DNA of 45,988 bases from a virus, in IMG/VR virus record IMGVR_UViG_3300004460_000078, positions 1,139 through 47,126 of that record. One strand, 5' to 3'. Shown here in pieces: positions 2,694 to 36,219 of this stretch. Each line of letters begins with the position of its first letter. Within the stretch, counting starts at the first letter, position 1. Under the pieces are notes generated by a model. That model was not told the DNA's origin and did not search any database. It saw only the letters and a list, made by a program, of their open reading frames with translations. The translations under genes were made by a program, and so were the position numbers.

Positions 2694-2905
2694 TAGTCTT
2701 CCCCTAGACCCTTATTAGCCAACATCTCATAAAATGCTACACCTTCACTAACCTGAGCTATATCTCTAATCAGCGTTAACGCAGTTTTATACTTAGCATT
2801 TTGATCTATAAGATCCTGGATCTGCTGTGAGGTGTGCAGCATTACTCTATTACGAGCACACTTACACACCTCACAATTACAGGTTATACAACGATTATTA
2901 ATCAA
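2693..2905 (-). CDS. Small protein with N-terminal cysteine cluster
   Basis: A 70-aa protein whose first 16 residues hold five cysteines (RCITCNCEVCKC), followed by a helical region of about 50 residues. The cluster could bind zinc, but five closely packed cysteines do not match a standard ribbon that I recognise. The start at 2905 overlaps the upstream gene by 8 nt and the stop shares one base with the next start, so it is translated as part of the leftward packaging operon. Function unknown. Confidence 0.65.
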   Translation of the reverse strand: MINNRCITCNCEVCKCARNRVMLHTSQQIQDLIDQNAKYKTALTLIRDIAQVSEGVAFYEMLANKGLGED

Positions 2906-3128
2906 GCTTCTGGCTCTTCTTAGTGACCTTCTTAGCTTCAGGCTTAGCTACGGCTTTGTCTTCCACCTTAGCCACGTCCACTTTAATTTCGTCCTTAACC
3001 TTAACAGCATCTGCTGACACTTTAGCCGGATGATTGTTACCTGAATTATAACTCCTAGCTGGAGCGCCTGAACGCGTATGAACATTGATACCTGTTTCCT
3101 TTGATCGTTCGAATGGTGTTTTAGCCAT
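2898..3128 (-). CDS. Small Lys-rich protein, first gene of packaging operon
   Basis: A 76-aa protein with a polar N-terminal half and a low-complexity C-terminal half built from repeated Lys, Val, Ala, Glu and Asp (for example KVEDKAVAKPEAKKVTKKSQ). It is the first gene of the leftward operon that ends in the large terminase. A clear Shine-Dalgarno (AAGGAAA) lies about 8 nt before the ATG at 3128. The tail looks like a disordered, charged segment that could bind nucleic acid or another protein. No family is recognised. Confidence 0.65.
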   Translation of the reverse strand: MAKTPFERSKETGINVHTRSGAPARSYNSGNNHPAKVSADAVKVKDEIKVDVAKVEDKAVAKPEAKKVTKKSQKLD

Positions 3129-3332
3129 AGTATTATTTCCTTATATTTGATCTAAAAGATAACCCATATATACGTAGTTACCTACAAATAGCAACATTAA
3201 ACTGCGTTTAGAGTAATATAACTAACTAAACAGCCCGTTTAATATGGTATACCGTACTGTAATTCGGCTAACCCTTTGTATTACTTATATAAAATCTTCT
3301 TAAGAAAGAAGCGTCCGATGGACTCCCGCTAC

Positions 3333-3376
3333 GGGCTCCGCCCTTCGCGCTCATCCATCGTCCTTGGGCTCCGCCT
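3333..3376 (+). repeat. Two GGGCTCCGCC mini-hairpins
   Basis: Copies at 3333-3342 and 3366-3375 each form GGGC or GGC, loop TCC, then GCC(C). The core GCTCCGC is what I recall for the non-template strand of N4 early promoters (template core GCGGAGC). They may be promoter-like hairpins, or simply part of the larger inverted repeat that surrounds the first copy. Confidence 0.45.
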
Positions 3377-3462
3377 CCTCCACATATATATTATATTATT
3401 ATTATATAATATAGCGCCATGGCTCATATTCCTTTGAGCCGCACTTCCCCTACGGGAAAGTA

Positions 3463-3508
3463 CGCCACTCCGATTATTCTCTCGCGAGAATAATCGCTTG
3501 GTGTGGCG
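3463..3508. repeat. Long perfect hairpin with outer stem
   Basis: An 11-bp perfect stem (CGATTATTCTC at 3471-3481, GAGAATAATCG at 3486-3496) closes a TCGC tetraloop. A second stem, CGCCAC (3463-3468) with GTGGCG (3503-3508), encloses it. No T-run follows on either strand, so it does not look like a simple intrinsic terminator. It lies 33 nt before the first promoter hairpin and could be a genome-end or packaging signal, or a vRNAP signal. Confidence 0.6.
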
Positions 3509-3540
3509 CACCTAATTATAATTATAATAAATTACCTTAA

Positions 3541-3569
3541 CTAATAAGTTCGCTAAAGCGAACACAGTA
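3541..3569 (+). promoter_or_regulatory. Putative vRNAP early promoter 1 (hairpin type)
   Basis: CTAATAA is followed by a hairpin GTTCGC-TAAA-GCGAAC (3548-3563), two bases, then AGTA. Predicted +1 is A3566, by analogy with N4, where the hairpin loop lies about 11 bases upstream of the start. It is the weakest of the four in the +1 element (AG in place of GG). Confidence 0.6.
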
Positions 3570-3721
3570 TTAGTCAGATAGGGTTAGGGAAAGAGTACTA
3601 GTTGCGAATGATTAGCAACAAAACTTAAGGCTAATTTTTCATTCTAGGTATGGGTGTAGTACTAACCAGCTGGACCATCCCAGCTGAAACCCACCCCCCC
3701 ATCAAACTACCCTAACGTCCC

Positions 3722-3750
3722 TTACACAATGGGCTAAAGCCCATCAGGTA
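3722..3750 (+). promoter_or_regulatory. Putative vRNAP early promoter 2 (hairpin type)
   Basis: Hairpin ATGGGC-TAAA-GCCCAT (3729-3744) is followed by CA and GGTA; predicted +1 is G3747. It lies 38 bases upstream of the 51-aa gene start at 3785. The upstream heptamer (TTACACA) differs from the CTAATAR of the other three. Confidence 0.65.
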
Positions 3751-3784
3751 CTTACCATAACTCTAACCTATATAGGATAATACT

Positions 3785-3940
3785 ATGAAAACAATTAACA
3801 TGATCGCTGATACTGTCCAACAGTTCCTAGGCATGATCCAAAACTTCGTATCCGCAGGCAATGAAGTCTCCCTCATTACCCTCGATGCTATGAAGCAAGC
3901 TCGCGAACAGGCAGCTGCCGAGTTCGAATCTGCTAAGTAA
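3785..3940 (+). CDS. Small early protein, 51 aa
   Basis: An ATG at 3785 opens a 51-codon frame ending in TAA at 3938-3940. AGGA lies about 8 nt upstream. The product begins MKTINMIADTVQQFLGMIQN and ends in a charged helix (AREQAAAEFESAK). It is flanked by a putative early promoter (3722-3750) and an intrinsic terminator (3942-3970), so it forms a complete one-gene transcription unit. This is the most leftward rightward-facing gene, matching the position of the first small early genes in N4. Small phage proteins expressed first often act on the host, but no family is recognised and the function is unknown. Confidence 0.7.
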   Translation: MKTINMIADTVQQFLGMIQNFVSAGNEVSLITLDAMKQAREQAAAEFESAK

Positions 3941-3941
3941 T

Positions 3942-3970
3942 ACTAGGGGCCTTCGGGTCCCTAGTCTTTT
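3942..3970 (+). terminator. Intrinsic terminator after the 51-aa gene
   Basis: A 10-bp stem ACTAGGGGCC/GGTCCCTAGT (one G-T wobble) with a TTCG tetraloop is followed by TCTTTT. It starts 2 nt after the stop codon. Confidence 0.85.
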
Positions 3971-4109
3971 AATACACACAACAACAAGCACACACAACAC
4001 TCACAGAGAGAGAGTGTAAGAGAGGTATGTAAATACTAACTTTACTAACAATCACTATAACAACTATCACTACTAGTATACTGTACTACACTTAAGAGTA
4101 TAACTATAG
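3971..4109. other. Low-complexity non-coding stretch
   Basis: An AC-rich run with GAGAGAGAG at about 4006-4014 is followed by AT-rich sequence. A 6-bp inverted repeat ACACTC/GAGTGT (3997-4002, 4012-4017) is present. I see no gene. Confidence 0.5.
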
Positions 4110-4138
4110 CTAATAGCCTCGCTAAAGCGAGTCAGGTA
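4110..4138 (+). promoter_or_regulatory. Putative vRNAP early promoter 3 (hairpin type)
   Basis: CTAATAG is followed by hairpin CTCGC-TAAA-GCGAG (4118-4131) and then by CA and GGTA; predicted +1 is G4135. The 190 bases downstream hold no convincing gene (a 25-codon frame at 4160 lacks a ribosome site), so its RNA probably continues into the 4397 gene. Confidence 0.65.
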
Positions 4139-4331
4139 TAGTTAGGTTAGTCCTTTGGATATGACTGTAAAACTCCTACTATATCCTCTTAAGCCTAGGC
4201 AGCTTACTAGTACCGTAGCACCGTATGTCACCGGTTAGGTCATACCGAACAGATAGGTATGTACTGAAATTACTCTGCTCTGCTCAGCCTACAGGCACTG
4301 AGTACTTAGGTTACCAAGTCCTGTATCCTAA
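4139..4331. other. Non-coding leader between promoters 3 and 4
   Basis: It contains a 6-bp hairpin CATACC/GGTATG at about 4241-4261. No gene is supported. Confidence 0.4.
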
Positions 4332-4360
4332 CTAATAAACCCGCTAAAGCGGGTCTGGTA
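4332..4360 (+). promoter_or_regulatory. Putative vRNAP early promoter 4 (hairpin type)
   Basis: CTAATAA is followed by hairpin ACCCGC-TAAA-GCGGGT (4339-4354) and then by CT and GGTA; predicted +1 is G4357. It sits 40 bases before the ATG at 4397, a good distance for a promoter with its own leader. Confidence 0.7.
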
Positions 4361-4396
4361 ATATTACCATTAACCATGACAATTGGAGAATTAACC

Positions 4397-4807
4397 ATGG
4401 CGCTTACAAAGAATAACGAGAACAAGTTCACTAAATCTAACCAGGTTTCTAAGGATAAGTTTATCCTTGGTTCAAGTGAATGCTACTTCGAGCCAGCGCA
4501 AGCTTACAATGGTGTACTGACACCAGAGAAGCTCGCTAAGATGTTGCTAAACCAGAGCACTGTTGATGGTGTTAGCTGCGTTATCGGTGAGACCGGTGGC
4601 GAGGGTAAATCCCTTAAACTTACGTACTTCCGTAAGCACAGTAATGGTGAGACCGTTACTGAAGAAGTTCAGCATGTTGGGTTGATCACTGCGTCTGACT
4701 ATAAGATGCAGCTTGGCGAGGCTCATATTGCTGAGATCCAGAATCATGTTCGTAATGAACAGATTGTTAAGCGTACCGATGCTAAGTCAGTATTGGATAT
4801 GTTCTAA
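4397..4807 (+). CDS. Early protein of unknown function, 136 aa
   Basis: The chosen start is ATG 4397 because GGAG lies 9 nt upstream; an in-frame ATG at 4376 has no ribosome site. The protein starts MALTKNNENKFTKSNQVSKD, is soluble and mixed alpha/beta, and has no motif I recognise. It ends in SVLDMF. It is the first larger gene downstream of the four early-promoter hairpins and so is probably among the first and most strongly transcribed genes. The strong Shine-Dalgarno supports high expression. It is followed by the structured non-coding region 4808-5137. Confidence 0.75.
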   Translation: MALTKNNENKFTKSNQVSKDKFILGSSECYFEPAQAYNGVLTPEKLAKMLLNQSTVDGVSCVIGETGGEGKSLKLTYFRKHSNGETVTEEVQHVGLITASDYKMQLGEAHIAEIQNHVRNEQIVKRTDAKSVLDMF

Positions 4808-6967: not shown

Positions 6968-7071
6968 CATAAGCCTTATACATTTTATCTGGCTGCACCT
7001 AATCATAAGATAATGGGGAAAAGTTTGCCAATTTTTCCTCAGTCTTTTCATATACATAAAGGAAGATCGTG

Positions 7072-8808
7072 ATGACTGAACTAGATCAGTATGCCTTAGA
7101 GATGTCTTGGTCCACACGGGCCAGTGACGCAATCATTATCGAAGCCATTCATGGGGAAATCCCTATGAATATCGAGATGCCTATCCGAGAAGAAATCGCT
7201 GATCTGAATACCGGTACGGTAGAGGATACAGAGATATACGTTAAGTTCTTGTCTCTTATCTTAAAAGAACGGGCTCCTAAGCCTATCCAGGCGATCGCTA
7301 CCCAGATGGGACATCTGGCTGGAGCATTTAAGTCCACTGATGCTTTCTTATGGGGATTACTCCTCGTAAAGAACTGTAAAGACATGGGCCTCTATTCGCT
7401 ACAACAAGTAGAAGAAGAGTGGTACGTGATTCCTAGCTTCTCTTTAGATAAGAAAACTATACAAAAGCTAGATAAGCTACAGTATCTGCCACCTATGCAA
7501 GTTCAGCCTAAGAACTGGACTAACAATACTAATGGCGGATGGCTATGGGAGTCTAAGCACCTAGTACTAGGTACGCGGTTTACTAAGCATGATAAGCCAC
7601 TGGCTTATGATGTTATTAATAAACTCCAAAGCATTGCTTGGGAGATTGATACAGAAACTTACCTACTCGAGAAAGATACTAACCGTAACCTCAAGAAAAA
7701 GCAGTTCCTACGGGTTGTCCACGAATATGTGGATAAGCCGTTTCACTTTGTATGGAGATACGACTCCCGTGGGAGATCTTACTCTTCGGGCTATGACTTA
7801 AATTTACAAAGTAATGAATATGGCAAAGCCTTACTTAGCTTACATAAGAAAGAAAAGATTACCAGAATGGATAATCTCCTTGTCGCTATTGCTGGTCATG
7901 CCGGCAAAGACAAACTTACCTGGGAAGATCGTATCAGCTGGGCTGTAGGCCAAGATCCTGAAACGATCGAGTGGGAAGAACCTACCCTAGGCCGTAAGGC
8001 TATCAGAGCTTACCGAGATGCTATGGACGGCCGTAAGTCCGGCTATGTAATGACCCTTGATGCTACAGCATCAGGCATTCAAATCATGGCAGCTCTATCT
8101 GGCTGCAAAAAAACAGCTAAATGGGTTAATATGATTGACCCAGATGTACGCTATGATGTGTATAACGAAGTTACTGCACGGATGAATACTAAGCTGGATA
8201 CCCCAGTAAACCGTAAGGTAATCAAACAATGCGTCATGACCCACATGTATAACTCTAAGGCGACTCCAGAGGCATTATTGTCCGAGGAAGCGCTTGAGGT
8301 GTTCTATGACGTCATGGATGGAATGCTCCCAGGAGCTGATGACGTACTACAAACGATCAATGACTGCTGGAATACAGAGGCTGACCACCATACGTGGACT
8401 ATGCCTGATGGGCATACTGTGTACATCCCAGTAGTTGAAGGAACCTCTGCAACCTATCGTGACCAAGACTTAGGGGATATTTCGCTAAGATACTATGAGC
8501 AGCGACCTTCAGAAAACTACAGATCCCTAGCACCTAATGTATGCCACGCTATTGATGGCTACCTTGCTAGAGAAATGATCAGACGATGCGATTTCCAATT
8601 AAGTCATATCCATGACTGCTTCGCATTTAGCCCGGATCACCTACAGTCAGTAGCTGATACCTACCGAGCTATTATGTCTGAGATTTCTTCAGGAAATCTA
8701 TTTCAGGACATTCTTCGCCAGCTATCAGGAAACCCGCTTCTTGAAGTAGTAAAGTATTCCAATGATCTAGATCAATGTATTCTGGATAGTAGTTATATGC
8801 TATCCTGA
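7072..8808 (+). CDS. Single-chain T7-like RNA polymerase (N4 RNAPII type)
   Basis: The 578-aa protein carries all catalytic motifs of single-subunit phage RNA polymerases. DSRGR at 231-235 is the DxxGR motif. Motif A is MTLDATASG with Asp330. Motif B has Arg381, Lys385 and Tyr393 at exactly the T7 spacing. Motif C is HDCF with Asp515. T7 RNAP is 883 aa; this one is compact and lacks an obvious T7-type promoter-recognition domain. In N4, the middle-gene polymerase is a heterodimer of 269- and 404-aa subunits; here both halves are in one reading frame. It would transcribe middle (replication) genes downstream. ATG 7072 is chosen over GTG 7069; AAGGAAG lies about 7 nt upstream. A strong terminator follows the gene. 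Confidence 0.9.
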   Translation: MTELDQYALEMSWSTRASDAIIIEAIHGEIPMNIEMPIREEIADLNTGTVEDTEIYVKFLSLILKERAPKPIQAIATQMGHLAGAFKSTDAFLWGLLLVKNCKDMGLYSLQQVEEEWYVIPSFSLDKKTIQKLDKLQYLPPMQVQPKNWTNNTNGGWLWESKHLVLGTRFTKHDKPLAYDVINKLQSIAWEIDTETYLLEKDTNRNLKKKQFLRVVHEYVDKPFHFVWRYDSRGRSYSSGYDLNLQSNEYGKALLSLHKKEKITRMDNLLVAIAGHAGKDKLTWEDRISWAVGQDPETIEWEEPTLGRKAIRAYRDAMDGRKSGYVMTLDATASGIQIMAALSGCKKTAKWVNMIDPDVRYDVYNEVTARMNTKLDTPVNRKVIKQCVMTHMYNSKATPEALLSEEALEVFYDVMDGMLPGADDVLQTINDCWNTEADHHTWTMPDGHTVYIPVVEGTSATYRDQDLGDISLRYYEQRPSENYRSLAPNVCHAIDGYLAREMIRRCDFQLSHIHDCFAFSPDHLQSVADTYRAIMSEISSGNLFQDILRQLSGNPLLEVVKYSNDLDQCILDSSYMLS

Positions 8809-22567: not shown

Positions 22568-22752
22568 AAGACTTCCTAACAACGGCGAAAGCATTAGTAA
22601 TCACTCTCGGGTGCTTGCTAATTGCGATCCCCTTATTTGTTGGGGTCATGTGGCTTACACCGATTGTCGTCATAGCGGCAATCGGTGGCTGCCTCTTTAT
22701 TATCATCAAAATCTTACTTCACGAAACTCCGGACTCTCCCTCAGATCCTTAA
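22564..22752 (+). CDS. Small two-TM membrane protein
   Basis: A 62-aa protein with hydrophobic segments at about 9-31 and 32-51 (VITLGCLLIAIPLFVGVMWL, TPIVVIAAIGGCLFIIIKIL) and a short polar tail. It begins in an ATGA overlap with the upstream gene and is the last rightward gene. Its stop codon overlaps the last 4 nt of the convergent vRNAP gene. A holin-like role is possible by topology only. Confidence 0.65.
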   Translation: MKDFLTTAKALVITLGCLLIAIPLFVGVMWLTPIVVIAAIGGCLFIIIKILLHETPDSPSDP

Positions 22753-25700
22753 TCAAAAGGGGAGATATCCAAAGCATTCTCAAGACCGTGTATAGTCGTA
22801 GCTGAATCAAATAATTCATCCTGTTGGAAGAGATGAGGTAACAAGTCGCCTACAAACACTGAACCATTAATGTTAGCTAAAGTATCTAATCCTGTAACAG
22901 ATTGAAGCCCTGCAGCTGTCATAACCATAGTTGGAGACTTCTGGATCATGCTTGCAGCAGATCTTGTGTTCCGTAGCTTATATGACAGGAACGCAGTGAA
23001 CCCCAATGAGTTTATAGTCTCCAGCCATGGATGCATGTTCTCATCAAACAGAACGAAAGCATCAATTGACTCTTGTAATGCTACGTCAAACGATTGCCCT
23101 TTTACGTCAACTGCGTGACTAATCATTGCATATCGGCTCAAGAAGTCAGTCAACTGTACTACTTCTTTATGCTTCCGATACACAAAGCTACTCTTAGCTA
23201 AAACAATGTTCTTAGCAATATCAGTTACTAGTTCCGGAACCTTATCCGAGTACTTCGTGATCCGCTCTGCCTGTAGTACTTTCTGTGTACGATCTATAAA
23301 GCCTTCTGTTGATGCTGTGTTCACATCCTCAACAATCAATGAGTTCAGGCCTACTGAGCTCATAAGATGCACTGGGTTACGCTCAATCTCAGCTCCCAAT
23401 GCTGCTTTCTGCCGCTCAAGTGCTGCCTTCTGCGCACCTGTAGCTAGCTGTATCTTATGGTGAACATCGCGGTACAGCTGCGTATCCGCTTCATAGCGCT
23501 TATACGCCTTATATCCCTCAGCCATTTTAGTTACTGCGTATCGTGGGGATATTTTACGAATTCCCAACTGGTAGATATTACTTACCATGTTATTGATAAG
23601 AACCATCAACGTAGCCATAACAACACGTTCCATACCAAACGCCATCACCTGACGTACGCTGTAATGGAACTTTTTCATAAAGGCCCTTAGAGGAGCTAAT
23701 AGCTCTCCCTGTATACCCGGGATGTTGCTCATGTCCTTCGCAGTGTACCCAAATACCTTATAAATCACTGCATCACGTACTTTAAACTCACCGTTGAGTG
23801 AATACTGCTGCATATACTCTTTTACTTCTTCAGGTAACTTCAGGTACTTCTCGTAATGCTCCCCTTCAGGATCCAGTATGTTAATAAACTTTCCTTTGTA
23901 GCTTGGCTCTAAGCCAACCCACTCATCGACCAATAAGTCAATCGTACGTTTATCAGCATCTACTGTGTTTTTCTTACTAATGTAAGATGAGTTCATATTC
24001 GCGAATACATTTTGATACTCAAGATCAGGCTCAAATATAGTCTCTACATTATAGGCATCCATAATGATGCGATAATCTACAATATTGTTATTCTCATCGC
24101 GAATAGGACGAAGCTTCTGATCAGGAATTTCCTTCCCCTCTTTAGCTAACTTACGCTGATCCTTACGTACTTCATTAACCTTGCGGCGGATCGCCAAGTA
24201 ATCTGGCACACCCTTACTATCTTGGAATGCTTTATCTTTAGCTAGTATCTCACTCAAAGAAGTACCACTATGGTGCTTACCTGTTGTAGATAGGATACCA
24301 GATACGTGTCTAATCTCTGGAGACCATTTAGCTACAAACATGTGGGTATGAGCCTGTGGTACATTAGGAATTTTGCCTAACTTGTAAGGTAGCGTGAACC
24401 CTTCACGAGCCATTTGCTTTGTGTCAGCTAAAGTCCCAGTCTTCACATCAGTCAGATTATCAATCTTATCTACAGTCCAACCCTTCTGCATCTGCGTCGG
24501 ATTACCACTAAATAGATCTCTACGGGATACATTTACATACGCTCTATGGGCTTCCAACATATACTGGAATGCGTTCTCCTTAGGATCAGCTTTCATTTCA
24601 GCTTCCATTAGGGAATTAACCATAGCTAAATCTGAAGTCTGGTGCTCCTGGAGAGCCGTTAATGTAGCAATCGCATCCAGGCGCCGCACGTTATCAGTAG
24701 TTGTCTGCTCAGAAGTTAGAAAGCTCTGAGCGATACTATGAACGTTAAAATGTGCATCAGGTAGTTTAGACACCTGAGTCACCAAGAACTGTCCTAATTC
24801 CTCTGTATAGCGGATAGCGTCACTATTGCCTTTAAAGCCTGTAGCCTTAATGAGCTTAGCCTTCTCACGTTTAATAAGGTCCGGAGAATTAAGCAACATA
24901 CGAATTTGCGCAGGATTATATCCAGCGCTTAGTAGGCTACTTAGGTCACTTTTATAGACTACTCGAGTTATAGCCTGACGAGCCTTGAGAGTAATCTCCT
25001 CTGGCTTAGTAGCTTTCCACGACCCTTCCAATCTGAAGATCGCATCTCTAGCTACTTGCTGGTAGAGCTTACCGATATTCACTTTAGTAAATAGTAATGC
25101 CTTTACCAAATCTGCTGTTAAGGCGCCTCCGCCCATCTCATCAAAGATGTGCTTCATAACATCGCCCATGCTGGCATAGGCTGCCATCGTAGCCGTCTGG
25201 CGACCTGCTCCCTCACCTATGGCTACAATGCCGCCACCGATCACTGCATTCGAGAATCGGCTAGCTATGTTTCCAGGGTTAGAGCTAATTGCTTGCTGTA
25301 CCCTATCTTGAACAAATTTACGGATCTTTGAGTCTGCTGCATTAATGTACTTGCCTGACACATTCTCAATACTATCTAACTTGCTTTCGTGACCAGACTG
25401 TATCTCTATCAACTGAGCTGCGATAGCTACCATTTCTTCATATGAGTTAGTAGATTTGCGCTTATTAATAGCCCGAAGGAATTGATCTAAAATCACATCA
25501 ACAATGTGCTGCAGCTGAGCTAAGAACCCATCACCGCGCTCCGGCCGGCGACTGTCGAATGTCTTCAACGCTTTGATCACTGCTTCATTCGTAACAGCAT
25601 AAGCCAGGAATTCCTCTGGCACATTACGTGCTTCCGGGCCAAACAAATAATTATACTGTTTCTTAGCCAGGGCTATTTCAGCTGGTGTAGAATTAGCTAA

Positions 25701-28700
25701 GCTATCACTCAAGAATACTTTGTAGCCGCCCATCTTATCTATAGCTTTACGAGCATTATTTCTGACTCTACGAATCTGCTCCCCAATCAGTTTATTATCT
25801 GCGATCGCTGTGACAGTGAGAGCATGCAGTAGTTCGTGAACATATGTCTCCTGTGGAGAGTACTCATTACGAGCTCCTGGGACATCACGGCTCAGTGATA
25901 CCGTTACACGCTTGTCTGCAGCATCGTAGTTGCCTTGTGTCATTCCATCGATCTGCTCTAGTGTTAACTTGAGCTTCGATACGTGATCCATACCTTTAGC
26001 TAATACATCCATGATGCGGGATAGAGACTCATTATGAGCATCCATCGCTGCTTGACTTGGGTAGTACTTACGAGACAGGTTCTGGAATTTCTTAAATAGC
26101 CTTTTGACACTATCTTTGGTTATGTCTTTAGCAAATACTGTCTGCGGGTTTTCTCTCCGCTGATTATCCAAGGTCCCAAAAGTTAAGTCTTCGACAAAAC
26201 TCCTCATTGCCTTATCCGCAATGGTCGTCTCGGCTGTAAAGTTTGTTGGCTTAGCGTACTTACGTAACTCAGTGCGTAAGTTCTCGAGCATTACCTCGTA
26301 CGCTGCAGATCCCATCTCTTGGATGTACTCATCTGTCTTAGACGTATTGTTATCTGAGCCATTCAGCATATCCTTCAACAGACCCATAACTTGGTTCTGA
26401 GTTAGACCCTCATCTTTGAACCGCTGCTTCATTTCTTTAAGACGAGCATCAATAATTTTGTTATCACCTTCAGCTAAGCCTAGATATTCAAATGCTCCTT
26501 CGTTGGTATACCCCTGTAATACCGCTAAACCATCATCAGTACCCAAGCGCTGTAACAATGCGTCGTACTTGGCTCTCAAAGCTGGAGTAATTACTTTGGT
26601 GCTAACCTCAGGCGAACTAAAGAATATCTTTAGCTTATGCACATTAAGACTAGCTTTGACTGCCGCAATCCTACTATCTACTGACAATCCTGCATCAGGG
26701 TTAGTCACTGCCATATCCTGCGCAAACAACTGGCTAGTCCCAATACCACCTTTTTCCTCGATAAGTCCTTCTAGATCTTCTTTTACCGCTACACTTCTAT
26801 CAGCTGCTGCGTCTACTACTCCTACTAGTGCAGCGAATGTTAGCGGCGGCTTATCAAAACGAAATGTATTGATGTATGCATCTCTCTTAAGCCTAGTGTT
26901 AATAGCCAATAACATAGCTTTACCTTCGGCAGTTTCCGTAATCCCTTCACCGCCTCCCAGTGCTTTAGTAGCTGCAATCATTGCATGCATCTGGTTACGC
27001 ATGATGTCAGATATGTTTGTTTCACGACCATACTTGAGGTAATCCGTGTTGTACTTCTCAGAGAACTGCATAAGTACTTCTGGGCGACCAAACACCGCAT
27101 CGTACAGCGGCAGTACCTCAGGATGCTTTTCCAAGGACAGCGACAGTAAAGACGCGTCCATATTAATAATACCACGAATCAATGCACTCACACCTGGCGT
27201 AGTAAATTCCCTATTTCTTGGTTGGTTAGTACGCTCAACTGCCTTATACGGATCATTGGAAGACAGGTCTTTAGTGAATGATGATACCCGATTAGCATCA
27301 GCTGCATCCCGAACACCTACGCGCTTACTGAGATCAATAAACGAATCTACAGTAGCGTCATTAAGAGGCCCTTTATATTGGGGAAGCCACTGCTTCAAGT
27401 TACCTTTAACAAGCTCAAGAATTTCTACTTCTGTTAAGGATCCTGTCCTACCTAAGTCCTTTAACTTTTTTGCATAAGCCGCTTCGTAATGTTCCATGAA
27501 AATAGAATGCATTATCTCTGCAGCCTGAACTACGCCTTCACGTAATTCCTTTGTATCTCCAAGCATGGCGTTTAGGCCAATGCTGAAGCGAGGCTCAATT
27601 ACCGCTGAGATAGCAACCACTAACGGGCCCTCTTCAAAGGTAAAGTTCTGTGCCATACCCATCTTCAGACGATTGCCTAACTGATCAAGCGATCGGTCCA
27701 TACGTGGGTTACTATGAATAACCTTTAGATGAGCAATAAATGTATCAATGTCTGCTTTGCCTTCTGGCGTAGATCTATTAGCCTGTAATTCACCCATAGT
27801 TTGGTACAGGTGAGTGATGATATTTCTAGCTACGCCTTGAGCAATTGCTTGGACACCACCGCCATACAAGAAAATCATAAATGGGTACTTAACTAAGTCC
27901 CTAGCTTCTGGATCCGCAAGATCTGGAAACACTGCATTCAAAGATTTGGACCGGGTATCATACGTTTCACGTAACTGCTCTACCCGATCTTCTTTCCAAA
28001 ACCGCTCAACGGTGTAGTAGTCTGCTGCTGCATCTACACTCCGAGACTCAGGAGCTTGGACTTTAGACCCTAAATCAAGATAGGCATCCGTGTGTACGTC
28101 TTCCTGTTCATAGATACCACTAACTAAGTGAATCCTGCCTTCAGGATCCCTAGCTAAGTAAGTGCCTGTCTGGTTTAGGTGCTTCTCAAGATCTTCCGGA
28201 GTGTTGAACGAAGGAAACTGGAGAATGTTAATAGCAAAGCCATTGGAGATACCATCAATCTCAAGCGGTATATCCGACTTAAACGCATTCTTAAACGATG
28301 ACGCTGGCTTCCCATCAGCCATATGCTGAGCCCATGCCTTACTGTATTTATCGTATTTAGCTAAGCCTAACAGCCCGGTGATCAACGAGATATCTGTTCC
28401 TTTGAATGGGCTATTGCTCGCAGTCTTTAATTTCATTAAGACCTTCGCGAATGCATCTACATCTAAGTTCTCCGCAGTCAGTAACTTGACTGCAGCTTGC
28501 ACATCCGGATGAGCCGTATATTCATCAAATGTCCGGTTAATGTCTACCGGAGTCTTTTTGTCGATCTTATAGCCTAAGTTAAACATCACAGCATACTTGA
28601 ACATATGAATGTTATCTTTGGTGTACGTCGTAGTTCCTTTAGGCTTAACCATGTGCCGCATGAAGTGACTGTTCTGGGCGTTAATAAGGCCTACCTGCAT

Positions 28701-30992
28701 AATACGATGCTGGTTCATCAGCTTATATTTATAATAGAAACTAGTTAACCAGCCTTCATTGCGAGCTCGGAGCACTTCCTCTAGAGCTTGAATTTTATCC
28801 TTATTTGATGCTTCAATCGCATCTGCGTGAATCTTGATATCGCTTGCGCTCATAGACTTCACATTCATAGTAGCATGCAGCACACTCTTATGCTGCTCTG
28901 CTAGCTGCGCTACGATACTCAATGCGTCAGCTTCGCCCCACTCCACATTCTGGAGTGCCTTCAGCGTTCTACCAAGCTGTTTAGGTACATCACCAAATGA
29001 GTTGCGGATACTACGAACTGTTTGTTTAGCTGGACTCTGTAATGGCTGACTAGCATTTTCTAGCTCGACGCCACCACTGAGAACAGCGGTTGCTGCATTA
29101 TGCGCCAACACCTCAATCTTATTGGTCCGGGTTTGTGTAGTAAATTTAATATGGTTATAGCTTTGTTTATGTTCGAAGTTACGACCACTTTCGTCTGCGT
29201 TACCGAAGTCCCAGACCTTAGTTTGGATAGTTAAATTCGCGACATTACTGTCAGTAACACCAGCATCCTGATTCAAAATCTCGATTGCTATCGCACCTAA
29301 TGAAATGTTCAACCCTTCAGTGAAGGCCGATAATTCTGAGCTTTGTGGAGATACTCCCAAAATACCTTTAATTAACGTTCCAACATCTTGAACGGCATAA
29401 CGGTAATCAATACCTAGGCCGTCCATCTCACGAGCATCTACATCACTTACATATGCCCGCTGATCCCCATACATAAACAGAGCTCTGTCCTTACGCGTAA
29501 GGAGTGGGTTATCAGACGGATTCTGTATACGCCAACTATCTGCAGCAACCATCATTGCAAATACAGCTTGTGGAGGAAGTTCTCCTGCAGTTTGTGGGTT
29601 CTGTTCACTAAACCGCTCAAGGAGTCGTTGAGGCTTACGCAAACCTGGCGTATCTGAACGACCTTCCATAGCTTTCTCAATAGGCACTCGTAGCTGCTGA
29701 TACGCAGCATTGTACTCTACGTACCTATTAGCTAACGTATTGGCCATCTTGGGCTCAACGCCAATGCTAGCCAATGCATTTACAAACGGTTCCAGTTGCT
29801 CAGGCGAGCTATCTTTAGGAAAGATATGTGACGGGATATTGAATACACCGTTACGGCTTTTAGTGATCTTAATGAGATCATTGATCGTTTTATTAGCGAA
29901 TGCTACCCCAGACTTTACACTAGACACTAGCTGACGAAACCCTCCTTCACCTAAGAAGTTAGCCTCTTTGCTAGGCGCTGCCGGTATCTTCGCAACCTTG
30001 ATATTAGATGATGCCGAAGTCTGCTTCGGTAACATACCCATCTGCCGTAGTGCATCTATATTAGCTCGAGCTTCTATCTCAATAGCACTATCAGCTAACA
30101 TCTCATTAGTTAAGTCTTCGAATCCATACTTCTTGGCGATAGTTTGGCTAAGCTTACTACGGTAATTTTTACTATCTAAAGGGTGGCTGACATGACTACG
30201 TTCATGCTCTAACACAAATTCTTGTATTTGTTCTGGCGTCATCTGGTTAATCAGATCGACTAGCTCTACACCATGCTCATCTCGCATGTAGGCTGTTACT
30301 GCAGCCTTCTGCTTAGATGATGGCTCATGCCCATCTAAGTACTCGAGTAGCTCTTCTTGAGTAATATCTTTTTTAATGACAATGCCTGAAGGAGTAGAGC
30401 GAGCTAATGCCCCATCAAGAATACTATTGTCGCCATCTACATACTTAACTGACTCTCGTTGTCCATTCGTAATAGTAACTACTAACCCATTATTCTCCGC
30501 TTCCTTAACCATGTTAGCAGTGCCACGGCTAGTGCCATCCCAGCCAGCTAAAAGGTGTGTACCCAGTTTAGCCATCTGAGCATTACCATTCTTATTCCCG
30601 TCTGCCGGCATAGCAATCACTGGGATGCCCAATTCAGCAGCTAATGCTTCACCATACTGGTCTACACCACTAGCAGTTCCAGAAATAATAGCTACATCAT
30701 CAATAGACTTCCCTCTAAGGAATCTATTGAGCTCATACCTAATGGCGTCTAGATTCTCAAAGTCACGACTACCAGCAATAATCAAGCGATATGGACGGTC
30801 TTTAGGAGCCGTAGGCTTCTCTACTTTGAGCTGCTTACGGAGCTCTTCCATTTCAGATAATACAATATCTCTATGCGCCTGGAGTGCATTCATTTCTCCG
30901 CCCATATCTCGAGCTAATGTATTAAACTTCTTGCGATCCTCGACGGAGAGCCGCTGCGTATTCATACATACTGCGAGACTTTTCTTGGCCAT
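22749..30992 (-). CDS. Giant virion RNA polymerase (vRNAP) with SLOG and zincin-like motifs
   Basis: A 2747-aa polyprotein-like virion enzyme, equivalent to the N4 vRNAP (about 3500 aa) that is ejected and transcribes early genes from hairpin promoters. Residues 66-175 form a SLOG/DUF2493 domain (GSRDF at 74, SGTASGVD at 104, WDGTSRGT at 151). HERSH (His263, Glu264, His267) is a zincin-like motif. The polymerase core follows: DxxGR-like region with Arg763 (NQHRIMQV), motif A IDGISNG with Asp913, motif B with Arg1031, Lys1035 and Tyr1043 at exact T7 spacing, and motif C PLYDAVFG with Asp1298. HELLH (His1719, Glu1720, His1723) is a second zincin-like motif. A hydrophobic stretch lies near 2450. 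The AAAAAGG site lies inside the small upstream frame at 30999-31127. Confidence 0.92.
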   Translation of the reverse strand: MAKKSLAVCMNTQRLSVEDRKKFNTLARDMGGEMNALQAHRDIVLSEMEELRKQLKVEKPTAPKDRPYRLIIAGSRDFENLDAIRYELNRFLRGKSIDDVAIISGTASGVDQYGEALAAELGIPVIAMPADGNKNGNAQMAKLGTHLLAGWDGTSRGTANMVKEAENNGLVVTITNGQRESVKYVDGDNSILDGALARSTPSGIVIKKDITQEELLEYLDGHEPSSKQKAAVTAYMRDEHGVELVDLINQMTPEQIQEFVLEHERSHVSHPLDSKNYRSKLSQTIAKKYGFEDLTNEMLADSAIEIEARANIDALRQMGMLPKQTSASSNIKVAKIPAAPSKEANFLGEGGFRQLVSSVKSGVAFANKTINDLIKITKSRNGVFNIPSHIFPKDSSPEQLEPFVNALASIGVEPKMANTLANRYVEYNAAYQQLRVPIEKAMEGRSDTPGLRKPQRLLERFSEQNPQTAGELPPQAVFAMMVAADSWRIQNPSDNPLLTRKDRALFMYGDQRAYVSDVDAREMDGLGIDYRYAVQDVGTLIKGILGVSPQSSELSAFTEGLNISLGAIAIEILNQDAGVTDSNVANLTIQTKVWDFGNADESGRNFEHKQSYNHIKFTTQTRTNKIEVLAHNAATAVLSGGVELENASQPLQSPAKQTVRSIRNSFGDVPKQLGRTLKALQNVEWGEADALSIVAQLAEQHKSVLHATMNVKSMSASDIKIHADAIEASNKDKIQALEEVLRARNEGWLTSFYYKYKLMNQHRIMQVGLINAQNSHFMRHMVKPKGTTTYTKDNIHMFKYAVMFNLGYKIDKKTPVDINRTFDEYTAHPDVQAAVKLLTAENLDVDAFAKVLMKLKTASNSPFKGTDISLITGLLGLAKYDKYSKAWAQHMADGKPASSFKNAFKSDIPLEIDGISNGFAINILQFPSFNTPEDLEKHLNQTGTYLARDPEGRIHLVSGIYEQEDVHTDAYLDLGSKVQAPESRSVDAAADYYTVERFWKEDRVEQLRETYDTRSKSLNAVFPDLADPEARDLVKYPFMIFLYGGGVQAIAQGVARNIITHLYQTMGELQANRSTPEGKADIDTFIAHLKVIHSNPRMDRSLDQLGNRLKMGMAQNFTFEEGPLVVAISAVIEPRFSIGLNAMLGDTKELREGVVQAAEIMHSIFMEHYEAAYAKKLKDLGRTGSLTEVEILELVKGNLKQWLPQYKGPLNDATVDSFIDLSKRVGVRDAADANRVSSFTKDLSSNDPYKAVERTNQPRNREFTTPGVSALIRGIINMDASLLSLSLEKHPEVLPLYDAVFGRPEVLMQFSEKYNTDYLKYGRETNISDIMRNQMHAMIAATKALGGGEGITETAEGKAMLLAINTRLKRDAYINTFRFDKPPLTFAALVGVVDAAADRSVAVKEDLEGLIEEKGGIGTSQLFAQDMAVTNPDAGLSVDSRIAAVKASLNVHKLKIFFSSPEVSTKVITPALRAKYDALLQRLGTDDGLAVLQGYTNEGAFEYLGLAEGDNKIIDARLKEMKQRFKDEGLTQNQVMGLLKDMLNGSDNNTSKTDEYIQEMGSAAYEVMLENLRTELRKYAKPTNFTAETTIADKAMRSFVEDLTFGTLDNQRRENPQTVFAKDITKDSVKRLFKKFQNLSRKYYPSQAAMDAHNESLSRIMDVLAKGMDHVSKLKLTLEQIDGMTQGNYDAADKRVTVSLSRDVPGARNEYSPQETYVHELLHALTVTAIADNKLIGEQIRRVRNNARKAIDKMGGYKVFLSDSLANSTPAEIALAKKQYNYLFGPEARNVPEEFLAYAVTNEAVIKALKTFDSRRPERGDGFLAQLQHIVDVILDQFLRAINKRKSTNSYEEMVAIAAQLIEIQSGHESKLDSIENVSGKYINAADSKIRKFVQDRVQQAISSNPGNIASRFSNAVIGGGIVAIGEGAGRQTATMAAYASMGDVMKHIFDEMGGGALTADLVKALLFTKVNIGKLYQQVARDAIFRLEGSWKATKPEEITLKARQAITRVVYKSDLSSLLSAGYNPAQIRMLLNSPDLIKREKAKLIKATGFKGNSDAIRYTEELGQFLVTQVSKLPDAHFNVHSIAQSFLTSEQTTTDNVRRLDAIATLTALQEHQTSDLAMVNSLMEAEMKADPKENAFQYMLEAHRAYVNVSRRDLFSGNPTQMQKGWTVDKIDNLTDVKTGTLADTKQMAREGFTLPYKLGKIPNVPQAHTHMFVAKWSPEIRHVSGILSTTGKHHSGTSLSEILAKDKAFQDSKGVPDYLAIRRKVNEVRKDQRKLAKEGKEIPDQKLRPIRDENNNIVDYRIIMDAYNVETIFEPDLEYQNVFANMNSSYISKKNTVDADKRTIDLLVDEWVGLEPSYKGKFINILDPEGEHYEKYLKLPEEVKEYMQQYSLNGEFKVRDAVIYKVFGYTAKDMSNIPGIQGELLAPLRAFMKKFHYSVRQVMAFGMERVVMATLMVLINNMVSNIYQLGIRKISPRYAVTKMAEGYKAYKRYEADTQLYRDVHHKIQLATGAQKAALERQKAALGAEIERNPVHLMSSVGLNSLIVEDVNTASTEGFIDRTQKVLQAERITKYSDKVPELVTDIAKNIVLAKSSFVYRKHKEVVQLTDFLSRYAMISHAVDVKGQSFDVALQESIDAFVLFDENMHPWLETINSLGFTAFLSYKLRNTRSAASMIQKSPTMVMTAAGLQSVTGLDTLANINGSVFVGDLLPHLFQQDELFDSATTIHGLENALDISPFD

Positions 30993-30998
30993 GAAGTG

Positions 30999-31127
30999 CT
31001 ACCTTTTTAAAAACATTGTAATCATCTGCATCAAGATTTCATCTTCTTGATCTATGTCTTTCAAATATACTGTATGTTTCGTAGATAAGTCACGGAATCC
31101 TTTTAACGGAACTGCCTTATCCCACAC
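30999..31127 (-). CDS. Possible small gene between the 1700-aa and vRNAP genes, 42 aa
   Basis: A GTG at 31127 overlaps the end of the 1700-aa gene by 11 nt and opens 42 codons to a TAG at 30999-31001, 6 nt before the vRNAP start. The product begins MWDKAVPLKGFRDLSTKHTV and ends KDIDQEDEILMQMITMFLKR; its composition is protein-like and it fills the only gap in this operon. There is no clear ribosome site, so coupling to the upstream stop would be needed. It may simply be the leader of the vRNAP gene. Low certainty. Confidence 0.4.
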   Translation of the reverse strand: MWDKAVPLKGFRDLSTKHTVYLKDIDQEDEILMQMITMFLKR

Positions 31128-34100
31128 AATCGATTAAGTCTTCGACCATCTTCAATTCGGTCGATAAAGCATCCCATTGCTCTTTAGCATTAACTGTCAC
31201 AGTTGTACCATCATCGTTGTACACTTCAACCTCCTGAGACTGCCATGCCGCGTCTGTATCCATAGGGTCAGTAGTCAGCTCTTTCAGTAACGCCTTCTGC
31301 TTACGTAATACTGCGTTACGAGCTAATGTGACCTTACGTTGATCTCGAGCACTCTCTGCTTCGTTTACAGCCTTAGGAGGCTTAACATTAATGTCTTGGG
31401 CTGCGTAATCAATGTTTTCAAATATCTCATCATTCACTTTAGCATTGAGTTTATCGTGATGTATCACCAGCTTGTCTGTAGGCCGGCTCAAGGCGACATA
31501 CATCGCTTGGTAATGATTCTTAGCTGCTGCATCACCAGACCACGCCAGCATGCTATTTAGGCTCTCCTCAGCTACGTATACATTACGATAGGTAGATCCT
31601 TGAGACTTCCAGGCTGTGATCGCCATAGCTGGGTGAAAATCCATATTACCTAATTTACTAGCTAATGTATTTGCATCTTTAAATGCCGTATACGCACTGG
31701 CAGATTTCTCATCCTTAGCTTTAGCAAAGGCGCTGGCTACTGCTTCAGTTAATGTAACTTCCTGTTCGTTCCCGAATTGATCCCGATAAGTAGTGTTTCC
31801 ATTTTGGTTCTTAAACTTAAGATCATCTGTAATCACAGGAATCTCAGTCTCGATAATCTCTTTACTAATCAAGTCCATGAGCTTAACCGTTCGATACGGT
31901 ATTGTGACTCCCTGGAAGTTTAACGTTGGTGGGGACTTTTCATCAAATGGCATGATCTCAACAATTTGGTATTCGCTCGCATTACCAATAGATTGCTCTG
32001 GCGTCACATCAACTGACGTATACGACATTAAGATGTCGCCTACCGCTGGAACTCCATACTCACGTTTGTCGCCATACATTTCTTCAAACAATACGCGGTT
32101 AAGATTATACACAGATTCCATAGCTGTATTAACGCCAGTAATTTTGCCATCACGATCTCGGAAAAATTTCTTCTTCTCGTTGTTGGCTACTACCAATCTG
32201 GTGCCATATCGATTAGCGGCGTAGTCCTTAAGAAACCCTTCAATCATTGCGTCTCCGTTGTTCGCAAAGATCACTCCAGCATTGCGTACCGCATCAAATA
32301 CATTTGACCGGATGTCACTAGGAATCAAACCAGCTCGCTGTATAGCTGCCGGGATGTTCTTCCAAGCATTAGTTCCTTTACGAATCTCGCGAGCAGCCAT
32401 TGCAATTTTACGTCGTAGGTCACTAGGGCTATCTAGCACAGCTGTATAGCGGCGTCCTAGTTCTAGGATAGGAGAAGTTCCGACTTGACGCTGTGGCTTT
32501 AATAGGCGGATACGGTTTGAGTATGGGCTATTCTCTGCGTCATTGAACACTGGGCTATTAGCTTGCCCACCAAACTCCACACCCTTAACCGCATTCTTAT
32601 CAAATGTAGTCGATCTGATTGGTGGCAACTGGGCTGAGTCACCTAAGAAGAGTACTTTAACTCCAGCATCTGCAGCAGACTTGCTAATGATATTGAGTAT
32701 CTCTTCTCCCAGCATAGAAGCTTCATCAATAACTAATAGCTTCTTCCCTGCTAGAACCACTTCCTTGTTTTCACTAATAACATTTTCGTCCGCTACATTC
32801 GGAGACTCAGGAGGTCGTAGTCCTAATGCGCTCCATATAGTAGCGGTATCATTAGTTTCCAGAGCCTGAGCTAGAATTGCAGCTGCCTTATTAGTTGCTG
32901 CAGTATACTCAACCTGAGCACTCGTGATGTTCTTAGCATTCTCGATAATCTTCTTAAGGATCGTAGTCTTACCAGTACCACCACGTCCTTCTAATACAAA
33001 ATTAGTGCTGCTAGGATTTGCATCATCTAGCCAAGCACCAATCTCATCAATCGCTTTACGCTGCTCAGCGTTAGCATACCCCTCTGTACCAGCAACTAAG
33101 TACTTATCTTCTCGAACAACATCATCTTCAAGATTAGCAAAGTCTTCTTCCGAGGTAACAGCTAATGGCCAGGATTCTGTCATCAGTTTTGTAAACTTAT
33201 CGAAGTTTGCTCGCTTACGAGCTTCTTCGTACCAATACTGTAGATACGGCCGTATTTCGGCAGACTTCATGTCATCAACCATAACCTCAATGAAATCTAC
33301 AAACTTATGGCTACCAGCCTCAATATGGTAGACAGCCAACTCAACCCCTGCAGCTAATGCTTTAGGGTCCACACCACTATTAAACTGCCCGCCTAAGGCA
33401 GCCTTACGGAGGATCTCCCGTGCTTTATCAGCTCGACTTTGTGTTACTAGCTTATTTTCTGTACCGTATTCAGCAGACTTCTTTGTAGGAGCCGGCTCAG
33501 GCACTTCTACTTGTTCTGCTACGGCTACTTCTTCTTCGACTGCTGTCTCTGTAGGAGTCTCTGCTGGTTGACTTGCTTCTGGAGTATCTTGTACTCCGCT
33601 ATCTTCCGTTTCATTAACAGCAGGCTGTGCAGTAGTGCCTTCCGGTGGTCCGGAACGGGCATCCAAATCTTCCTCACCCAATGTAGTATCACTATCAGGC
33701 TCAGCTGCTGGAGTAACGTCTTCGCTGGGCTGAACGGATTCATTGTTACCGGGCTCCAAGTTATCTAAAATATTTAGCTCAGTATCACCAATCTCATCGA
33801 CTAATACATTATCACCTTCAGTACTGGCATCAGCAAATTCTTGAGAGGCTTTAGCCTTACCCTTAGCTGAAGTTCCTACTGCCTTGGCATATGACGTGTT
33901 CTTATGGTTCTCCGCCAAGGATAGCATCTGAGCCCCATACTCAGCTTCAGTGCTAATTGCGTTAGCTAAGTTAGACGATGTGCTATCAATTTTTAGTACG
34001 TATTCTTTATTATTCCTGGCCTCAGTAAACTCAGCCTCAGTCATAGTGACTGGAGTATACGTCATATCACGAGGAGCATTCTTCCCAGGTGTCTTACGCT

Positions 34101-36219
34101 TACCTCTTAAATACACTGGTTTACCATCTGCCGATGATTTAATGAGCGCACTAGACACAGCTTCTGACTTAGCCTGCATGTTCGCTACATGCACTTTCAT
34201 CTTACCTAGCGTAGTCTTAATACTCTGGGCGCCTTGTGTAGCTTTACGAGCCCCACTAGCAACCTGAGCAGTTACTGAGTTAATCTCATTGAAGTAAGTA
34301 TTCATACCTGTCCAACGATCAGAGGATCCATTAATGACTTCTTGATCTACATCAGACATAGACTTGCCAACAGTAGCATCAGAAGCTTTAAGCTGTTCCT
34401 GTAAGCGCTTTGTTTCTTGCAGTCCTTTAATATGCTCAACATCAGCTGACTCAGTAGCATTATCTAATTCTGTAGTTAATACCTCGTCTGGCACTTCGGT
34501 ATCTAAGATACCTAAAGGCTTATCTTTTGCCACAGATTCAACACTATCATCACCGGCAGTCTTATTAAACTCAGTAATTAATTCATCAAGCTTAGCCTTA
34601 CGCCGAGCCTCTTGAGCTGGCTCTAACGCACGAGACTTAAGCGCCTTAATCTTCGAACTAGCATCTCCAGGATTAGCAGGATCTAAGACAATAGCGTCTA
34701 ACTGCGCATCTAAGTCCTCATCCGTAATAGCACTAGTATCAATCTCAGCTTCTTCAACCGGGTCAACAGGAGCTGGTTCTTCTGGTGCTAGTTCAGGCTT
34801 AACTCTAGCCGGCAACTCATCGTAAGCTGCTTGTGCTGTAGCTCTATCCTCATCAGAGATGGTAGGATCTGCTAACTGCTCTCTCAGTGTATCTGCCCGA
34901 GTGCCTGCTGTGAATGCTGCAGGAGCCTTAAACGCTGCTCTAGCTGTCTTCAATGCTGCTCTGCCCGCGACCATACCGGCGATACCGCCAGGAGTACCCA
35001 TGGCCTCCGCAAGTGCATCATAAGCTACTTGGTCCCAATCATCTACTTCACCTTTGGCAGCCATCTGTTCTGATACAGATGTGAGTCCGCCAGATAATCC
35101 TTCACCTGCTAATGCAGCTGCCGGACGCGCTACACCATTAATGAGTGCTTTACCTGTTAGGGAATTCGCAAACTTACCTGGCAACCCTGCAGTTGCTTTA
35201 GCAGCTACTTTAGTAGCCCAGTCTAATCTAGCTATTGGAATTGCCTTAACCGCAGCCATATCACCAAACTTCTCAGCAACGGTAGCTGCAGCTGACCATA
35301 TACGAATACGATCGGCTTCTTCCAGAGTAGGATCTCGACCCTCTACTTTTTTAAATTCGGCAATCGCTTGGTTGCCCTTACCGACAGCTAAGGATGTTAA
35401 TACTGCCGCTTGAGTAATAGGACCGCCTGCAGTAAACGCAATCATATACGGGATACTATCAATACCCTGCTCTGCAAAGGTACCAAAATCATTTGTAGCC
35501 GCGTTCCACGCTGCAGATAGGATACCGTCATTCTCTGCAATAACTTTAAAAGCAGCTTGCACCGCTACCTGATCTTTTCGATTTACAGGAATTTTTTCTT
35601 TAACACTTTTACCAAATGCATCAATGGCGTCAAGCTGTGCATTATTTTTCTGTACTTCTTCGTAATCTTTTTCAAGATTTTGGTATATGCCAGATTTCCG
35701 AAACTCTTCATTTTCAACAGCAAACTCGGGATCTGTCTGCATGGCCATAAATTTTTCAATATCAGCAGTCTGCGGACGATCCCTAATTCGTCCGTAGTTA
35801 TTGCCTTTCGTGACTTCTTCAAGAATCTGAAACCCTGCAAACGCCGAAGCACCTTGTACGCCTAAGTCTACACTTGTTTGCCCAAAAGCATTACGGCGAT
35901 TGCCTAACCACGAAGTAGGAGCTCCTTCAGCAATAGCCCGTTGATCCTCGTCTACATAAGCCCGAAATGATTCTGCCTCAGCTTCACCTAAGTCGGAGTT
36001 GTATCGCCCTTGAGCATCTACAAATGAATACGTACCATCACGGTGTTTACTAAGTCCTGTATCAGTCTGTTCTATAACCGGATTAGGATTAGCTTCAACT
36101 GGCGAATTTTGTTGCTGTACCCAGCGATCAATGCCTGTTGCGACTTCTCCAGCAGCAGACATTTTTGCACCAGCTACAGCCTCTTTAGCAGACAATAACT
36201 TGCTTACAAATTGACTCAC
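31117..36219 (-). CDS. 1700-aa virion ejection protein with SF1B helicase domain
   Basis: The first 430 residues are helical and Ala/Gly-rich with a hydrophobic patch (DSIPYMIAFTAGGPITQAAV), as in internal virion proteins that are ejected. A middle segment is acidic and Pro/Glu-rich, probably a flexible linker. From about 950 a small helical domain precedes a complete RecD/Dda-class helicase: motif I GRGGTGKTT (Lys1084), motif II VIDEASM (Asp1165, Glu1166), motif III LGDSAQLPP (Asp1194), motif V AWKSQGSTY and motif VI VALSRPTD (Arg1579). The gene lies directly upstream of vRNAP in the virion operon, so it is very likely packaged and ejected with it. Virion location is inferred from position; helicase motifs are seen directly. 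Confidence 0.85.
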   Translation of the reverse strand: MSQFVSKLLSAKEAVAGAKMSAAGEVATGIDRWVQQQNSPVEANPNPVIEQTDTGLSKHRDGTYSFVDAQGRYNSDLGEAEAESFRAYVDEDQRAIAEGAPTSWLGNRRNAFGQTSVDLGVQGASAFAGFQILEEVTKGNNYGRIRDRPQTADIEKFMAMQTDPEFAVENEEFRKSGIYQNLEKDYEEVQKNNAQLDAIDAFGKSVKEKIPVNRKDQVAVQAAFKVIAENDGILSAAWNAATNDFGTFAEQGIDSIPYMIAFTAGGPITQAAVLTSLAVGKGNQAIAEFKKVEGRDPTLEEADRIRIWSAAATVAEKFGDMAAVKAIPIARLDWATKVAAKATAGLPGKFANSLTGKALINGVARPAAALAGEGLSGGLTSVSEQMAAKGEVDDWDQVAYDALAEAMGTPGGIAGMVAGRAALKTARAAFKAPAAFTAGTRADTLREQLADPTISDEDRATAQAAYDELPARVKPELAPEEPAPVDPVEEAEIDTSAITDEDLDAQLDAIVLDPANPGDASSKIKALKSRALEPAQEARRKAKLDELITEFNKTAGDDSVESVAKDKPLGILDTEVPDEVLTTELDNATESADVEHIKGLQETKRLQEQLKASDATVGKSMSDVDQEVINGSSDRWTGMNTYFNEINSVTAQVASGARKATQGAQSIKTTLGKMKVHVANMQAKSEAVSSALIKSSADGKPVYLRGKRKTPGKNAPRDMTYTPVTMTEAEFTEARNNKEYVLKIDSTSSNLANAISTEAEYGAQMLSLAENHKNTSYAKAVGTSAKGKAKASQEFADASTEGDNVLVDEIGDTELNILDNLEPGNNESVQPSEDVTPAAEPDSDTTLGEEDLDARSGPPEGTTAQPAVNETEDSGVQDTPEASQPAETPTETAVEEEVAVAEQVEVPEPAPTKKSAEYGTENKLVTQSRADKAREILRKAALGGQFNSGVDPKALAAGVELAVYHIEAGSHKFVDFIEVMVDDMKSAEIRPYLQYWYEEARKRANFDKFTKLMTESWPLAVTSEEDFANLEDDVVREDKYLVAGTEGYANAEQRKAIDEIGAWLDDANPSSTNFVLEGRGGTGKTTILKKIIENAKNITSAQVEYTAATNKAAAILAQALETNDTATIWSALGLRPPESPNVADENVISENKEVVLAGKKLLVIDEASMLGEEILNIISKSAADAGVKVLFLGDSAQLPPIRSTTFDKNAVKGVEFGGQANSPVFNDAENSPYSNRIRLLKPQRQVGTSPILELGRRYTAVLDSPSDLRRKIAMAAREIRKGTNAWKNIPAAIQRAGLIPSDIRSNVFDAVRNAGVIFANNGDAMIEGFLKDYAANRYGTRLVVANNEKKKFFRDRDGKITGVNTAMESVYNLNRVLFEEMYGDKREYGVPAVGDILMSYTSVDVTPEQSIGNASEYQIVEIMPFDEKSPPTLNFQGVTIPYRTVKLMDLISKEIIETEIPVITDDLKFKNQNGNTTYRDQFGNEQEVTLTEAVASAFAKAKDEKSASAYTAFKDANTLASKLGNMDFHPAMAITAWKSQGSTYRNVYVAEESLNSMLAWSGDAAAKNHYQAMYVALSRPTDKLVIHHDKLNAKVNDEIFENIDYAAQDINVKPPKAVNEAESARDQRKVTLARNAVLRKQKALLKELTTDPMDTDAAWQSQEVEVYNDDGTTVTVNAKEQWDALSTELKMVEDLIDCVG

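Follow-up and report, generated by a model that had tools for sequence, protein, structure and literature searches.

Four TAAA-loop DNA hairpins are very likely early promoters of an N4-like phage, and loop sequences differ between its relatives

Analysis of a 45,988-nucleotide stretch of the virus record IMGVR_UViG_3300004460_000078 (positions 1,139 to 47,126 of the record; here called the window) revealed four hairpins at the left genome end, between a leftward gene block (1-3128) and the rightward early genes and in the same direction as the latter. The phage is N4-like, yet distant from the cultured N4-like phages. The predicted hairpin promoters, all on the plus strand, are GTTCGC-TAAA-GCGAAC at 3548..3563 (promoter 1), ATGGGC-TAAA-GCCCAT at 3729..3744 (promoter 2), CTCGC-TAAA-GCGAG at 4118..4131 (promoter 3), and ACCCGC-TAAA-GCGGGT at 4339..4354 (promoter 4). 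All four have perfect stems of 5 to 6 bp with unrelated arms around an identical GC-TAAA-GC core. Each site folds as DNA on either strand, within -3.6 to -6.0 kcal/mol (-4.7, -4.8, -3.6, and -6.0 kcal/mol for promoters 1 to 4, respectively). Numbered from the first base 3' of the loop, positions 9 to 12 hold a predicted plus-strand initiation box, which reads AGTA for promoter 1 (3566..3569) and GGTA for promoters 2 (3747..3750), 3 (4135..4138), and 4 (4357..4360). The predicted starts are A3566 (or G3567), G3747 (or G3748), G4135 (or G4136), and G4357 (or G4358). Position 10 is G at all four sites, and the motif CTAATAR is found upstream of promoters 1, 3, and 4.

The initial annotation of this locus had described hairpins with a common core and differing stems at 3548, 3729, 4117, and 4339, each followed at a fixed spacing by RGTA (three times GGTA) and three of them preceded by CTAATAR. 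These claims held, except that the third hairpin starts at 4118; the earlier start at 4117 included a C/T mismatch. The annotation had also placed the G of GGTA 12 bases past the first A of the loop. This was only partly confirmed, as a distance of 12 lands on the second G (3748 and its equivalents), and the proposed starts at 3566, 3747, 4135, and 4357 are the R of RGTA, one base before that point.

The sequence GCTAAAGC occurs in 11 copies in the window, compared to 2.7 expected by chance, and only these four hairpins join it to a stem of 5 bp or longer and to a correctly spaced RG. No further copy of the hairpin was found in the remainder of the 54,836-base record. When the whole window was shuffled 100 times and scanned under the same rule, the largest family of hairpins sharing a core had two members, compared to the four observed. 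When only 3129-4800 was shuffled (5000 times), two members were reached once and four never. The four-hairpin family is thus real and beyond chance.

The landmark CCTAACGTCCCTTACACA (3711..3728, plus strand) is positioned directly 5' of promoter 2, which is syntenic with the landmark promoter of relatives and with P1 of N4. An early open reading frame (ORF) of 51 aa (3785..3940, plus strand) lies 41 bases 3' of promoter 2, and an intrinsic-terminator-like site at the end of this ORF (3942..3965, plus strand) closes the promoter 2 unit. Just 3' of promoter 4 lies an early ORF of 143 aa (4376..4807, plus strand), whose likelier start is the ATG at 4398, preceded by GGAG; with the protein as a search query, only the near-identical contig matched. 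A search for sigma-70-like -35/-10 sites gave two weak sites against 4.4 expected, which is no excess over chance. Upstream of promoter 2, an element at 3634-3690 (TTTTTCATTCTAGGTA...GTACTAAC, followed by a C-rich tract) is kept in nearly all relatives, and the left end of N4 likewise has a C tract before P1. This element is possibly part of the genome end.

The window encodes a single-chain N4 RNAPII-like RNA polymerase (middle RNAP) of 579 aa (7069..8808, plus strand; phrog_2051, E 4e-94; phrog_2166, E 6e-42), and no hairpin was found directly 5' of its gene in the window. Nearly all phages carrying a virion RNA polymerase (vRNAP) have a two-subunit RNAPII (PMC4496689); the single 579-aa chain of the window clade departs from this rule. 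The vRNAP itself, the predicted hairpin recognizer, has 2747 aa and is encoded on the minus strand (22749..30992; phrog_2206, E 4e-178), with the RNAP core at about residues 345 to 1440. Its residues R763, D913, R1031, K1035, Y1043, and D1298 align with all six catalytic residues of N4 vRNAP, and its motif EIDGISNG fits ExDGxxxG (pattern from PMC10654107). An AlphaFold (AF2) model of the RNAP core was of low confidence (pLDDT 46.7); its sole significant fold match in the PDB was N4 vRNAP (E 9e-5). No reliable alignment was obtained for the N4 contact residues K114, R119, W129, D901, and R904, which lie in a region unalignable even among known schitoviruses. In relatives, vRNAP is a single chain of about 4200 to 4800 aa. 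In the window, it is split by a 124-base gap into the 2747-aa part, which opens with a SLOG (YAcAr) domain, and a 1700-aa protein (31117..36219, minus strand), which matches the N-terminal part of the relatives' vRNAP and carries an AAA_30/PIF1-like helicase domain. The N-terminal vRNAP part of relative L062 has a 2OG-Fe(II) oxygenase domain instead.

The same scan was applied to the N4 genome as a positive control. It revealed hairpins at 95 (GTTGC-TTC-GCAAC), 564, and 4553 (the latter two with TCC loops), corresponding to P1, P2, and P3, all three with G at position 10 and P3 directly before RNAP1. Their number and locations agree with the published P1 to P3 (PMC4496689), and the hairpin that the scan found for P1 is also present in the P1 oligonucleotide shown in PMC12633501. 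The window resembles N4 (Schitoviridae) in having hairpins oriented rightward at the left genome end, GC loop-closing pairs, a variable complementary stem within the 5 to 7 bp of N4-type hairpins, a vRNAP gene in the genome, and a G start box 9 to 10 bases after the loop, a near-identical ruler. GC flanks the loop on both sides at all four window sites, which gives the loop-closing C:G pair and the template -8G of an N4-type promoter. In several relatives, the last hairpin is positioned about 80 to 125 nt 5' of the RNAPII gene, like P3 of N4. The loop differs, however. N4 promoters require a three-base loop with a template 5'G and 3'A and a purine at -11 (PMC4496689), whereas the window loop TAAA (template TTTA) has four bases, with 5'T, 3'A, and no central purine, and so does not meet the N4 rule. 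In N4, the start base is a G eight nucleotides 3' of -8, which is position 10 counted from the loop. All four window sites have this G, but the conserved G of the clade begins one base earlier, at position 9. The window also has four copies with a different upstream sequence. The window sites meet the testable features of N4-type early promoters except for the loop; the vRNAP-dependent, rifampicin-resistant initiation that also defines this class is a prediction here.

Hairpin promoters in the early regions of the N4-like phages LUZ7, LIT1, and PEV2 and of Pectobacterium CB1-like phages were likewise predicted from sequence (PMC3715699, PMC6027278). Three-base loops are described for them (with a central purine in the CB1-like phages), and neither a four-base loop nor phage-specific switching is described. 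Promoters of T7-type single-subunit RNAPs are read by a related polymerase family with a corresponding specificity loop and intercalating hairpin (PMC4496689), but they consist of double-stranded linear sequence without a DNA hairpin.

Relatives were gathered with an RNAPII profile built from four relatives, which yielded 30 loci. The same architecture was found in the syntenic early region of 19 related uncultured contigs, with 1 to 7 hairpins each. Nearly every locus spanning this region has the landmark, in the form aaacgatcTTTTACACA, 5' of a hairpin, and more hairpins with the same core follow downstream in the same phage; at L014 4479, the landmark is present with no clear hairpin after it. 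A first broad list of hairpins consisted mostly of chance hits, and only families with a common loop core and the single landmark sites (L030 and L035) were kept. The curated set comprised 72 sites from 21 phages including N4, of which 69 belong to the uncultured clade. Among these 69, G occupies position 9 in 68, and either G or A is found at position 10. The sites were initially selected by a purine/G filter on positions 9 and 10; a repeat search by the core alone gave the same pattern. A strict G at position 10 was dropped as a criterion, G9 being the most constant base in the clade. The phage of L012 (L082, minus strand, near 4800) has one hairpin at the landmark, GCCC-TGAT-GGGC, and GG occupies positions 9 and 10; no second copy was found in this phage, so its loop class is uncertain.

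Covariation of the stems was strong and register specific. At the four-base-loop sites (n = 18), 92.6% of stem positions were paired, with a covariation value of 0.753 compared to 0.148 for shuffled and 0.04 to 0.279 for slid arms. At the three-base-loop sites (n = 24), pairing reached 93.3%, with 0.849 compared to 0.199 for shuffled and at most 0.216 for slid arms. Mismatches at stem position 5 were C.A in 16 cases and G.T in 3; a C.A mismatch corresponds to a G-T wobble in the template. Over all positions the counts were 21 and 11, and position 4 showed the opposite bias (1 and 7). In L015 (6029, 6440, and 7039), all three sites have a TCC loop with a flanking C/A mismatch, a T-G wobble on the template strand, which hints at function of the hairpin on that strand.

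Comparison of the loops revealed TAAA (window and L021), TATC, TGAA, TGCC, TTC, TCC, TAC, CTT, AAC, and GTC in the clade; three-base N4-type TCC/TTC loops occur in L024, L031, and L006. A table of ten phages by seven cores was nearly diagonal: each phage had its own core at all its sites (3 to 7) and lacked the others, with a single TGCC match in L013 as the sole off-diagonal entry. Each phage thus uses one loop at essentially all sites, and loops differ between phages. Relatives L023 and L024, with DNA about 85% identical (80 to 93% in blocks), differ by TAC to TCC at five of five matched promoters, with A or C, respectively, at the loop centre, while the flanks are almost unchanged at two of the five; the vRNAP genes of this pair are absent from the two contigs. 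In the RNAPII tree, TCC falls inside the TAC clade. A parallel change of the same base at five promoters requires a trans-acting reader of the loop-centre base; N4 vRNAP contacts the loop-centre position -11 (PMC4496689), the base changed in this pair. The same tree joins the window to L013 (TATC; support 81/83) and L021 (TAAA) to the TAC/TCC group (94/96). Since the two TAAA phages stand on separate branches, the TAAA loop probably arose twice.

Stem length also differs with the loop. Stems of 2 to 4 bp, several with mismatches, are found where the template loop is GAA (L017 and L019), and stems of mostly 4 to 7 bp where the loop is TAAA, TGAA, TATC, or CTT. GCGAAGC is an unusually stable DNA mini-hairpin. 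A T-A pair closing a TTTA loop has been described for a DNA hairpin; our literature search gave no confirmation of this. The pattern could reflect a need for hairpin stability, which is an inference. Simple scanning of six cultured schitoviruses other than N4 revealed no clear family with four-base loops. Cultured Vibrio phage 1.097.O (L077 282, 1217, 1950, and 2757) has four early-region hairpins CAC-TAC-GTG, mostly followed by AAGA-like boxes, which may represent an unreported TAC-loop promoter family. No paper on loop switching was found in the literature searched, which is weak evidence, as most subscription papers were not covered; promoters and hairpins go unmentioned in a survey of uncultured N4-like phages from 2023.

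Alternatively, the single-chain RNAPII or a DNA-binding regulator of the phage, rather than vRNAP, might use the hairpins as promoters or operators. The RNAPII gene is present, its recognition signals in the clade are unknown, and a loop common within one phage proves only that some trans-acting factor exists. However, several relatives have a hairpin about 100 nt 5' of the RNAPII gene, like N4 P3, and this gene needs expression before RNAPII exists; moreover, N4 vRNAP promoters have matching geometry and GC closing pairs. This explanation is very unlikely. The same holds for the hairpins acting as RNA, as attenuators, processing sites, or terminators in crossing transcripts. They form stable stem-loops, and one scored as terminator-like on the minus strand, but this function would leave the downstream G box at a fixed distance unexplained, the plus strand has no U tract, and loop identity is kept while the stems vary. 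The mismatches at position 5, mostly of the template-strand wobble type, also argue against it, though those at position 4 do not. Recent duplication of a functionless repeat or mobile element could account for the CTAATAR shared upstream of three window copies, yet the arms are wholly different and still complementary, with covariation over 42 sites, and the hairpins are kept in 19 other contigs and switch in concert. Duplication is contradicted by the covariation tests and all but excluded.

The four hairpins are therefore very likely early promoters for the phage's own virion-encapsidated RNA polymerase (probability about 0.88), a reading without transcript or binding data. It is favored over the rivals mainly because hairpins precede the RNAPII gene in several relatives and the N4 geometry is reproduced. 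The hairpins with their fixed spacing, covariation, conservation, and synteny, the vRNAP gene with its catalytic residues, the within-phage uniformity of the loop, and its concerted switching are shown. Against this reading stand the unmet N4 loop rules of TTTA, the one-base shift, the absence of a window hairpin before RNAPII, and the lack of a clear hairpin in L014. By inference, the target of the injected vRNAP would be the hairpin on the template strand (GC-TTTA-GC), extruded once the DNA is supercoiled or single stranded, as in N4, and the enzyme would read the loop and adjacent GC pairs. Rightward early-gene transcription would begin at the R or G of the RGTA box, 9 to 10 bases after the loop, a prediction accurate to about one base. 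The loop would serve as a specificity key, one per phage, that switches between phages, presumably along with vRNAP.

With respect to the initial annotation, the claim that stems covary while loop and spacing stay fixed held, and the covariation search in related phages gave a strong signal. Its proposal of vRNAP early promoters was supported by every computational test that could be run, with transcription still inferred. The N4 loop, given there as TCC, is TTC in P1 and TCC in P2 and P3. The suggestion of a distinct specificity class held but was too modest, as the clade has at least ten loop classes.

In a bolder reading, the loop is a phage-specific code with fast turnover, including changes between three and four bases, that is replaced at all early promoters with a matching change of vRNAP. 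We lean only slightly toward this reading, and the responsible vRNAP residues are not shown. If it is true, four-base template loops of the TTTA type would present the hairpin in a second way, incompatible with N4. The four-base TAAA loop and phage-specific loop switching are likely new compared to known N4-type promoters, within the literature searched. N4 vRNAP is the textbook DNA-hairpin-reading polymerase, with rules that rest on one phage; the clade offers a natural series of loop classes on one scaffold. The near-isogenic pair L023 (TAC) and L024 (TCC) and the two separate TAAA lineages make the evolution of hairpin specificity directly testable, and the same series makes the joint change of several promoters at once testable. 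Synthetic biology could draw orthogonal hairpin/polymerase pairs from it, and the early regions of uncultured N4-like phages can be annotated by the simple sequence signature that it provides.
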